Source: a virus. From it: 27,005 nucleotides of DNA. The translations under genes and the position numbers were made by a program. This document shows, in pieces, positions 21,528 through 25,032 of this stretch (its first letter is position 1; every line of letters starts with the position of its first letter). Under the pieces are notes generated by a model that was not told the DNA's origin, ran no database searches, and saw only the letters and a list, made by a program, of their open reading frames with translations. The DNA lies in the IMG/VR virus record IMGVR_UViG_3300017706_001232, positions 1 through 27,005 of that record. One strand, 5' to 3'.

Positions 21528-22534
21528 CAACCACCACCCTCTTCGTTATCCTGAAGAGCATATATTTCAGAACGACACATTAATCTAGGAGCAGTGATCT
21601 GACCATAAGAAGCATCTTGTTGCTGACCACCAACATCTACACGAACAACAGGTTCCATTTCTTTAAAAGAAAGTGTTAATTGTGTTCTTAGTGGATATGT
21701 GTTTCCATTATCATCCAAGGCAACAGAGGTTGTATCATGAACTGCTGTTATGTTATACAATACTAGTAGTTTAGGCTGACCCAAATATGCAAGCGGTGCA
21801 GATTGATCTGGTATTGATACTGCACCATTTGAACCTATTACCGCATGATCCATTCTCCATATTGGAGGTGTCGCTATTAAATCTCTATTCGAAATAGTAT
21901 CTTCATATGATCTAGGAAAAGAATATGCTTCTAGTTGGGCAATCATATTCAAAACTCCATTTTCACCATATATGTCGCGGTGTGACTTTGCAACAAAATC
22001 ATAAGCTAATGTGTAGTTTCTTTCTACAGAACCACTATAAAATAATTCTTGATTGGACATACCTATTGCTGGTTGGTCTGTCGCCATCGACGCCTGACTC
22101 TTGAGCATGTCAACCGCACCTAATGCAGAAGATGCAAGTTTCATTCCAGCATTCGCTGCAACTCCGGTAGCCATAGCAGCCATATCACCAAGACCTGATC
22201 CTTGACCCTGCATCGCCAATCCACCTTTCGCCATACCAATTAGTTTTTGTACACCGTCATCAACCAGATCAATCCCCGTACTTCTTGCTCCTGCGGGTAA
22301 AGATAATTTCTGTAAACTATACGCAAAACTAGTTTCGACTTGAGTATAGTTGTGTGTTGTGATTCTACTCAACTGCTGTGGCATAGGAACAAACCAAGTA
22401 TCTAACTTCGTATCACTTCCTTTACCACTAGCGATATCTGCCCTAGACTGAAGTTTATTTGCTTGGTATGCACTAAGTGCAATGTAGTCTGAGAAACTGT
22501 CTGCTCTTGTTGTTTGAGATAGTGTTACTGGCAT
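21527..22534 (-). CDS. Baseplate tail-tube cap/initiator, gp48/gp54-like
   Basis: Likely platform on which the tail tube polymerises. ELFYSGSVERNYTLAYDFVA (163-182) followed by KSHRDIYGENG and LEAYSFPRS fits the tube-initiator pattern shared by T4 gp48 and gp54, and a C-terminal LSFKEMEPVVR strand follows. A Gly/Ala/Met-rich helical stretch occupies about residues 97-145. Length is 335 (T4 gp48 364, gp54 320), so the sequence does not decide between them. ATG 22534 is chosen because GGGGGA lies just upstream; in-frame ATGs at 22546 and 22567 have no ribosome site and the longest version overlaps the divergent gene 4. Confidence 0.7.
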   Translation of the reverse strand: MPVTLSQTTRADSFSDYIALSAYQANKLQSRADIASGKGSDTKLDTWFVPMPQQLSRITTHNYTQVETSFAYSLQKLSLPAGARSTGIDLVDDGVQKLIGMAKGGLAMQGQGSGLGDMAAMATGVAANAGMKLASSALGAVDMLKSQASMATDQPAIGMSNQELFYSGSVERNYTLAYDFVAKSHRDIYGENGVLNMIAQLEAYSFPRSYEDTISNRDLIATPPIWRMDHAVIGSNGAVSIPDQSAPLAYLGQPKLLVLYNITAVHDTTSVALDDNGNTYPLRTQLTLSFKEMEPVVRVDVGGQQQDASYGQITAPRLMCRSEIYALQDNEEGGG

Positions 22535-22560
22535 ATTTTCCCCCATGTCTATATATACCG
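22535..22560. promoter_or_regulatory. 26-base divergent junction with TATATATA
   Basis: Only 26 bases separate the divergent starts of the tube-cap gene and gene 4. They contain the ribosome site of the minus-strand gene and TATATATA at 22550-22557. No convincing sigma-70 or late box with proper spacing was found for either side, so the promoters may lie inside the opposing coding regions. Confidence 0.3.
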
Positions 22561-22992
22561 ATGGCATATAAATCGAAATATAAACCTCAAAATCCCGATA
22601 AGTATATGGGAAAATTAGAAAATATAGTATGTCGATCTACGTGGGAGAGAAAGATGTGTAAATATCTAGACCTCAACGAAAATGTTATATCATGGGCATC
22701 AGAGGAGTTAGCAATTCCGTATTTTTCACAGGTAGACGATAAATGGCACAAATACTACCCAGACTTTATGTGTAAGATAAAGAACAAATCTGGAACCATA
22801 GACAAACTCATAATAGAAGTTAAGCCGGAAAAACAAACAAAACCACCTAAGTCTAAAAAACAAACTAGAAATTATCTTCGTGAGATGAAAACTTTTGCCA
22901 TAAATACTTATAAGTGGGAAGCAGCAGAAAAGTTCTGTACAGAAAATGGTTGGGTTTTTAAAATCTTAACAGAAAAGGATCTTTTCAAATGA
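22561..22992 (+). CDS. 4: Head completion nuclease gp4
   Basis: Late head-completion protein of the gp4 (50/65) family, related to PD-(D/E)XK nucleases. The 143-residue product (T4: 150) starts MAYKSKYKPQNPDKYMG, close to T4 gp4's start. Conserved features: RSTWERK (25-31, putative E29), ISWASEELAIPY (43-54), YYPDF (65-69, putative D68) and EVKP (86-89, putative E86 and K88), the nuclease core. The frame continues upstream to an ATG at 22477, but that part overlaps the divergent gene and shows no homology, so ATG 22561 is chosen despite a weak ribosome site. First gene of the plus-strand late operon. Confidence 0.93.
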   Translation: MAYKSKYKPQNPDKYMGKLENIVCRSTWERKMCKYLDLNENVISWASEELAIPYFSQVDDKWHKYYPDFMCKIKNKSGTIDKLIIEVKPEKQTKPPKSKKQTRNYLREMKTFAINTYKWEAAEKFCTENGWVFKILTEKDLFK

Positions 22993-23612: not shown

Positions 23613-24344
23613 ATGCTACATGAAATAATAAAAAAAACTATTCCCGAATATACTTGCTCATTACCAATTACCAAAAAAGAAATAAAATTTAGACCTCTTT
23701 TGGTAAAAGAAGAAAAGTTTATATCTCAAATAAACGAATTGTCTGAGTCATTTTCTGATCGGTTATATTCATTATGTAAATTAGTAGATTCTTGTTGTGA
23801 TGGTGCTATAGATTCTATGCAGCTACCATTATACGATTTTCAATATCTACTGATTGATATTCGAAAACGTTCTATTACAGAAGAAACTAGTATGCAAATT
23901 CAATGTCCGTACACTGATGAATCGGTTATAGTTAAAGTAAACTTTAATTCTCTGCTTAAAAATTCAATTGTACAAAGTAAAACTAAAGAAATATCAATTG
24001 ACAATTCTACTATACTAAAAGTAGGAATACCCAAAGTAAAAGATATATTAGACAGTTTGGTAGAGATGAAAAGTGAAAATGATGTAATGGGATTAATTTC
24101 ATCTGTATTGATAGAATTAGAAACTCAAAATAAAACCATAGATTTGAAGTCCGAAACACAAGAAGAAAAAATTCAAATGTTAGAATCTATGAATAGAGAT
24201 CAGTACAAAACAATAAAGGAATATGTGTTAAATGGTTACTTTGTAATGAAGTTAAAGTACCAGACATCAGACGGAGTTGAGAGGACGGTGAAAGTTTCTG
24301 ACTTTGCAAATTTTTTAAGGTTTTATTTGGGTACGCTGATTTAG
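23613..24344 (+). CDS. 26: Baseplate hub / tail assembly chaperone gp26, frameshift upstream ORF
   Basis: Member of the T4 gp26 baseplate protein family. The 243-residue product (T4: 208) shows EIKFRPLLVKEEKFI (23-37), a Cys-containing VDSCCDGAI stretch (58-66) and LPLYDFQYLLIDIRKRSI (71-88), the family signature, then a CPYTDE segment. The C-terminal third is helical. Near its 3' end an in-frame U UUU UUA heptamer (24311-24317) could send ribosomes into the -1 frame, giving a predicted 298-residue product with a WERD-containing tail. ATG 23613 has no clear ribosome site; it lies 12 bases after the previous stop. By analogy with lambda G/GT the short form would be made in excess. Frameshifting is inferred. 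Confidence 0.85.
   Translation: MLHEIIKKTIPEYTCSLPITKKEIKFRPLLVKEEKFISQINELSESFSDRLYSLCKLVDSCCDGAIDSMQLPLYDFQYLLIDIRKRSITEETSMQIQCPYTDESVIVKVNFNSLLKNSIVQSKTKEISIDNSTILKVGIPKVKDILDSLVEMKSENDVMGLISSVLIELETQNKTIDLKSETQEEKIQMLESMNRDQYKTIKEYVLNGYFVMKLKYQTSDGVERTVKVSDFANFLRFYLGTLI
24311..24317 (+). other. Candidate -1 frameshift slippery site U UUU UUA
   Basis: In gene 26 the codons read AAT TTT TTA AGG, so T_TTT_TTA is aligned to the zero frame, the heptamer used by HIV-1 gag-pol; A_AAT_TTT overlaps it at 24308-24314. The -1 frame is open from 24302 to the TGA at 24506-24508 and reads YADLVATLTLLF and then the short downstream ORF. Zero-frame termination is at TAG 24342. A 5-bp hairpin (TTAGT/ACTAA, 24341-24356) lies 23 bases downstream, too far to be a standard stimulator. 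Confidence 0.65.
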
Positions 24345-24370
24345 TTGCAACACTAACTTTATTGTTTAAC

Positions 24371-24508
24371 ATGACAGAAAAAACAAAATTGAATCTTAAT
24401 GAGATAGAAAACATGATAATCTGGGAACGTGATGTGTATGTTTCACTAATGAATATAGAAACAGAAAAGAAACAAGACGCAATCCGAGAAAGAAAGATAA
24501 CCTCATGA
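24371..24508 (+). CDS. Short ORF, probable -1 frame tail of gp26
   Basis: As a free-standing gene it would give 45 residues (MTEKTKLNLNEIENMIIWER and onward to RKITS). No ribosome site precedes the ATG at 24371, yet the frame is already open from 24302 within gene 26, so it is more likely the C-terminal extension reached by -1 frameshifting (63 codons after the slip). IWERDVYVSLMNIETEKKQD matches the WER-D-type helical tail that follows tail assembly chaperone domains in many phages. The stop overlaps the next start by four bases (ATGA at 24505), so translation arriving here would also feed the downstream gene. Confidence 0.65.
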   Translation: MTEKTKLNLNEIENMIIWERDVYVSLMNIETEKKQDAIRERKITS

Positions 24509-25032
24509 AAGATCAACTAAAAATCCTAAAAGAAGCACAAAAGAATTTATCATTTGAAAATATAACAAAAGCATTTACAGATAAATCTGGAATGGGTGAT
24601 AAACTAAAAGGCGCTACAGATAATATAAGTGGTGGTATTTCTGATTTTTTCATGCAGGGATTTGGTGATATGATGAATTTAGGAACCGGTGATGATGATA
24701 TGGATCTAAAATCATTACTTGGTGATTTCATACCCGAAGAACTAAAAGATATATTGGGTTTTGATGAGACACCGGAACTAAAAGATCCTGAAACTCCAGA
24801 TACAATGGGACCACATCAACCCACAGAAACACAACAACGTGTTGAAGTACAAAACCAACAGGCTTCAGATTCTGCAAGTAGAACAATGAACGACCCCTCC
24901 GCAGGAAACGGAGGGGTCATTCGAGATCAATCTCAGGCTTCTACTCCCGGTATATCAGAATCTAGTAATGGGGTCAATACTATGATTTCTGCTATACATG
25001 CAGCACCAGCGAACAGAACTGGGATGTCATGA
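24505..25032 (+). CDS. Acidic, Gly-rich protein of unknown function
   Basis: No family recognised. The 175-residue product begins with a Lys-rich helical segment (MKDQLKILKEAQKNL), has a Gly/Phe/Met patch (GGISDFFMQGFGDMMNLGTG, 43-62), an acidic stretch DDDMDLKSLLGDFIPEELKD, and then a Pro/Thr/Gln/Ser-rich, probably disordered C-terminal half. It is the last gene of the plus-strand late operon, joined to the short ORF by an ATGA overlap. Its stop (TGA 25030-25032) overlaps the 3' end of gene 32 on the other strand by six bases. A 10-bp hairpin lies in its coding sequence at 24892-24918. A tail or hub assembly role is suggested only by its neighbours. Confidence 0.75.
   Translation: MKDQLKILKEAQKNLSFENITKAFTDKSGMGDKLKGATDNISGGISDFFMQGFGDMMNLGTGDDDMDLKSLLGDFIPEELKDILGFDETPELKDPETPDTMGPHQPTETQQRVEVQNQQASDSASRTMNDPSAGNGGVIRDQSQASTPGISESSNGVNTMISAIHAAPANRTGMS
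24892..24918. terminator. GC-rich hairpin near convergent gene ends, possible terminator
   Basis: Perfect 10-bp inverted repeat GACCCCTCCG / CGGAGGGGTC with a 7-base loop CAGGAAA, standing out in AT-rich surroundings. It lies within the 3' part of the acidic protein gene, about 110 bases beyond the end of gene 32 on the minus strand. On the minus strand it is followed by GTTCATTGTTC, moderately U-rich; on the plus strand by no U run. It could end or stabilise the gp32 transcript. Confidence 0.45.

Follow-up and report, generated by a model that had tools for sequence, protein, structure and literature searches.

A putative frameshifted tail assembly chaperone encoded by gene 26 of a divergent T4-like marine phage

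The 27,005-nucleotide stretch of viral DNA analyzed here (positions 1 to 27,005 of IMG/VR record IMGVR_UViG_3300017706_001232; hereafter, the window) contains an ORF resembling gene 26 of T4-like phages, and the 3' end of this ORF overlaps a short ORF in the -1 frame. The arrangement raises the question of whether the short ORF is a gene of its own or the C-terminal extension of a longer gene 26 product reached by programmed -1 frameshifting. We consider it highly probable (roughly 0.93) that gene 26 is a frameshifted tail assembly chaperone (TAC) gene providing short and long forms. The anatomy of the locus, its homology to the T4 proteins gp26 and gp51, and the conservation of both the site and the -1 reading were observed; the shift, its frequency, and the chaperone function are inferred.

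The 0-frame ORF (positions 23613 to 24344; 243 amino acids [aa]), the predicted short chaperone or TAC-N, lies on the forward strand, as do the slippery site, both stop codons, and the -1 frame described below. Its product matched PF12322 (T4_baseplate; E = 2.8e-26, with profile positions 2 to 218 of 219 aligned) and phrog_150 (baseplate hub; E = 5.2e-25). The AlphaFold model of this protein was confident (pLDDT, 91.4; pTM, 0.88), and its strong matches were all to predicted T4-like gp26 proteins in BFVD (best E = 3.8e-13); one of these is named "baseplate hub assembly chaperone," and an entry named "baseplate hub assembly catalyst" matched less well. A fold search of the PDB with the model returned no match at E ≤ 0.001, and a PDB sequence search returned nothing meaningful; structural likeness to solved chaperones was treated as a supporting and not a strictly defining criterion, and TAC sequences are very divergent.

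Near the end of this ORF, the bases TTTTTTA (positions 24311 to 24317) are read as codons TTT TTA in the gp26 frame, forming a slippery heptamer, T_TTT_TTA, that is separated by 24 nt (27 with the stop counted) from the TAG codon at 24342 to 24344 that ends the short form. The -1 frame is bounded upstream by TGA at 24299 to 24301, is open from 24302 to 24505, and closes with TGA at 24506 to 24508. Its post-shift part (63 codons; 24317 to 24505) would be added to gp26 as the TAC-C extension, with a junction of FANFL-KVLFG, to make a predicted TAC-NC of 298 aa. No Shine-Dalgarno (SD)-like element was found before any ATG, TTG, or GTG of the -1 ORF in the window. The initial annotation had described each of these features (a gene 26 of a T4-like phage, a heptamer in register 27 bases before the stop, a -1 frame open from 24302, products of 243 and 298 residues with this junction, and a downstream ORF without a ribosome site), and all were confirmed on reanalysis. 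The heptamer alone is no proof of frameshifting, because X_XXY_YYZ heptamers in register occurred at 62 of 8,332 codons in the window (0.74%), and T_TTT_TTN in register occurred at three places.

The predicted extension corresponds to the domain that annotations of T4-like phages call gp51. The 68-aa product of the -1 ORF matched phrog_634 ("baseplate hub assembly catalyst," gp51; E = 2.4e-13) across residues 3 to 65, the overlap with gp26 included. Searches with this ORF by tblastn (loose E limit) gave 484 phage records, and the best alignments, cyanophages among them, crossed the overlap into regions annotated as gp26 only. A joined coding sequence (CDS) was present in 0 of the gp26 loci retrieved with annotation, where gp51 was either a separate gene, as in S-SSM5, ACG-2014f, Mosig, and R10Z, or missed. 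In T4, gp26 (208 aa) and gp51 (249 aa) both matched PF12322 (E = 8.8e-64 and 3.9e-52, respectively), and of the two, only gp51 matched phrog_634 (E = 1.2e-23; residues 147 to 246). Comparison of profiles built on the gp26 alignment gave probabilities of 98.6% for T4 gp26 and 92.2% for T4 gp51. The T4 genes 26 and 51 are separate neighbors in opposite orientation, and T4, judged from these matches, keeps the short form (gp26) and the long form (gp51, with the extension fused in frame) as two genes.

Relatives were collected from isolates and from IMG/VR. A single-sequence scan of IMG/VR viral contigs with the window gp26 found no relatives, a scan with the -1 ORF found three, and an alignment-based scan found 80 further loci, two of which leave their contig before the gp26 stop. 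Ninety loci could be analyzed: 78 from the alignment-based scan, nine isolates, L013, L014, and the window. They covered phages infecting cyanobacteria, Pelagibacter, Vibrio, and Pseudomonas, together with IMG/VR contigs. In all 90 loci, the -1 frame stayed open beyond the gp26 stop, where the same domain followed, and the 3' end of gp26 carried T_TTT_TTN in 89, the remaining locus (L017) having T_TTA_AAA. The alignment of homologues suggested in the initial annotation thus supported both the heptamer and the -1 reading. The Kyanoviridae isolates S-CAM1, S-BM3, ACG-2014f, S-SSM5, S-CAM22, BUCT-ZZ01, and Mosig had T_TTT_TTC or T_TTT_TTT at this position, as did Vibrio phage R10Z (Schizotequatrovirus) and Pseudomonas phage pf16, and the -1 frame of these nine isolates opened into FF..L.H..L..YY..NFALMQHHKYSL.EIENMIPWERDIYV. 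T_TTT_TTA was identical in L013, L014, and L016 (L015 and L016 are one contig). Because 89 of 90 loci have the heptamer, all 90 have the extension, and close relatives share the T run, the arrangement exceeds what chance would produce. The window lineage is divergent, with about 29% identity to its best isolate match and 40 to 62% to IMG/VR relatives. Its site begins 31 nt before the gp26 stop, compared with 10 nt in 67 of 81 dereplicated loci, and its second heptamer codon is TTA rather than TTC.

Departures from the canonical heptamer were also seen. Near position 3690 of L017, at the gp26 end, the sequence ACA TTT TTA AAA has lost T_TTT_TTA, and the -1 extension is still reachable via T_TTA_AAA one codon downstream. 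L016 carries both heptamers, so L017 looks like a natural site switch. Separately, gp26-like genes without a canonical heptamer were found in Ackermannviridae and a Vibrio phage (L011, 3700 to 3930; L097 to L099 and L101, near 1020; L100, near 1120). Their 3' ends read NTT TTC, followed by a single sense codon and then the stop, and their -1 frame encodes a gp51-like extension (LLSYF.MCDELK.HGYSIFEI.E.MPWHLD); the region is unannotated in several of these records. These loci likely use a noncanonical -1 site.

Patterns of substitution indicated constraint on both the site and the -1 frame. The codon preceding TTT ended in T in 81 of 81 dereplicated sites (the codon usage of these genes predicts 50) and was variously AGT, TCT, GAT, AAT, GCT, CAT, or ACT, encoding Ser, Asp, Asn, Ala, His, or Thr. 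The first Phe codon was TTT in all 81 loci, with 73% expected (nominal log10 P of about -18 for the codon-final T and about -11 for the TTT codon, shared ancestry being ignored in both). Between the window and L013, the overlap 3' of the heptamer contained three substitutions, all three synonymous in the -1 frame and all three nonsynonymous in frame 0, and beyond the gp26 stop most variation fell at third positions of the -1 frame.

These observations bear on other explanations of the locus. That gp51 is a separate small gene, with its own start or coupled to the gp26 stop (for example, from the ATG at 24371 in the -1 frame), agrees with its listing as a short CDS of its own in many deposited genomes and with the finding that the -1 frame contains at least one ATG, GTG, or TTG codon in 81 of 81 dereplicated loci. 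Such starts lack an SD-like element in the window, however, and an ATG with one was found in 8 of 81 loci. The conserved part of the extension starts at the slippery site, 5' of the possible internal starts, the heptamer is preserved at the nucleotide level, and T4 gp51 joins the domain, in one reading frame, to a gp26-like domain; a separate gene is accordingly considered very unlikely. Transcriptional slippage on the T run, which would give mixed mRNAs in place of a ribosomal shift, is less probable still. Eight T's do occur in some relatives (e.g., L024, L042, L047, L055, L067, and L089), but the run is only six T's long in the window and in most relatives, which is short for polymerase slippage. 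Moreover, the T run always falls at the same phase relative to the codons, and the T_TTA_AAA replacement in L017 fits tandem tRNA slippage and not slippage by a polymerase.

The window comes from one viral contig only, and an assembly error or a decayed gene could in principle have split what is really one ORF or left a pseudogene. This explanation is the least credible, as the six-T run, both frames, and both stops recur in the close relatives L013, L014, and L016, isolate genomes share the arrangement, and the substitutions show purifying selection; for the family, error or decay is already refuted. A base-count error in the T run, which the initial annotation had named as a potential refutation, is very unlikely because these three relatives share the six-T run in the same register. 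An independent gp51 start, transcriptional slippage, and sequencing error were thus each considered and rejected on the evidence given for them, and ribosomal frameshifting is the preferred reading.

Elements that might stimulate such a shift were examined on both sides of the site. Among the 81 dereplicated loci, most had a conserved SD-like stretch some 10 nt 5' of the heptamer (region of about 6 to 15 nt upstream). Mean anti-SD duplex energy reached its peak (-6.0 kcal/mol) for 9-mers that end 6 nt ahead of the site and was near 0 a few nucleotides to either side. The observed anti-SD energy was -6.35, versus -5.06 (standard deviation, 0.17) under a synonymous-codon null model (z = -7.5), and GAG was preferred to GAA before a conserved Gly (36:22, versus 374:1046 elsewhere; Fisher's exact test, P = 2.6e-8, with relatedness ignored). 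Much of the SD-like signal follows from the protein sequence, and a further part lies at synonymous positions. In the window and its relatives, no stimulator is evident where one would be expected: the nearest SD-like stretch stops about 20 nt short of the site (12 to 18 nt in L016), not about 6 to 8 nt. RNA structure 3' of the window site was not more stable than in shuffled sequences (z-scores were positive), and in relatives, downstream structure was weak on average, with only mildly negative z-scores (mean z, -1.41, versus -0.52 for an upstream control). The conserved SD-like element, the L017 site replacement, and the noncanonical Ackermannviridae site are possibly unreported details. One tentative synthesis, to which we give somewhat less than even odds, is that a GAGGGA-type internal SD-like sequence, lying about 10 nt 5' of T_TTT_TTC and kept by selection over and above that on the protein code, stimulates the shift in most T4-like frameshifting phages, as in bacterial dnaX. 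The window lineage, whose site is 21 nt further from the stop, would do without such spacing, and the Ackermannviridae would shift via NTT_TTC. Together with the two genes of T4, these would represent several independent reengineerings of one chaperone frameshift.

Under the frameshifting model, most ribosomes would terminate at 24342 and release the 243-aa TAC-N. A minority would slip back one base on T_TTT_TTA, with the tRNAs on TTT and TTA re-pairing with TTT and TTT, and would continue to 24505, giving the 298-aa TAC-NC with the extra helical C-terminal domain that annotations list separately as gp51. On the model of lambda G/GT, the short form may coat the tape measure protein, a few long forms may recruit tail-tube subunits, and both forms would depart before the tail is completed.

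The genes flanking this region were also inspected. In cyanophages, a long ORF follows the gp26/gp51 region. In the window, the next ORF (24505 to 25032; 175 aa), whose ATG overlaps the -1 stop as ATGA, had no Pfam or PHROG match and is not recognizable as a tape measure protein. It occupies the expected tape measure site, and its position is conserved in L013 and L015. In a related 58.5-kb contig, a tape measure gene was looked for without a positive control; the outcome, no match and no obvious long candidate, therefore carries no weight. Upstream of gp26, the listed GTG start of a gp4-like head closure gene (phrog_218; 22477 to 22992) is probably too long; relatives of this gene begin with MAYKS, which would place the start near 22561 here.

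The window carries a well-supported, divergent new example of a known system and not a new kind, the principle having been published in 2022. In practical terms, the predicted 298-aa product should be annotated in place of a separate or missed gp51, and the SD-like stimulator and lineage-specific site shifts make control of the short/long ratio accessible to reporter testing. The proposal in the initial annotation that T4-like gp26 joins the long/short chaperone system was borne out, and its novelty was overrated, as the link already appears, to the extent conveyed by its title and by the papers that cite it, in the work of Vladimirov, Gautam, and Davidson (2022, Virology 566:9-15; cited in PMC10885494 and PMC12846349). 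That study identified the tail assembly chaperones of T4-like phages, and its title refers to a mechanism other than frameshifting in T4-like phages. T4 gp26 and gp51 resemble the window system in being PF12322 proteins, with the phrog_634 domain in frame in gp51, and differ from it in being encoded by two opposite-strand genes without a frameshift. It is to the T4 group itself that the nonframeshift mechanism of that title reportedly refers, the abstract being said to describe frameshifting as conserved in several T4-like groups and T4 as having separate genes 26 and 51.

Both T4 proteins are listed as hub assembly chaperones (PMC3004832), and G-T frameshifting was described as conserved among long-tailed phages "except T4" (Atkins et al. 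2016, PMC5009743); T4 itself is an exception because its short and long forms sit in separate genes. A 2025 paper (PMC12846349) refers to Vladimirov et al. on TAC-N/TAC-NC and on the poly-T -1 signals of T4-like TAC-N genes. On that account, the window shares its family and its predicted poly-T -1 frameshift with other T4-like groups, and it differs in its divergent lineage, in a site 31 nt before the stop, and in TTA rather than TTC. The TAC locus of Vandenendeviridae/Andersonviridae (phage Adele) likewise has a -1 shift at the end of TAC-N, at a GTTTTT motif, and a long -1 extension (PMC12846349); it belongs to a different phage group, and the likeness drawn here is one of arrangement. The parallel with lambda G/GT (Levin 1993; Xu 2004, 2013, 2014; reviewed in PMC5009743) drawn in the initial annotation also holds. 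Both systems have a short chaperone, a long form made by a -1 shift near the 3' end (predicted here), and a C-terminal extension, with site and extension conserved in relatives of the window; the nonvirion assembly role would apply here by analogy. The heptamers differ, and the likeness to lambda is one of organization.
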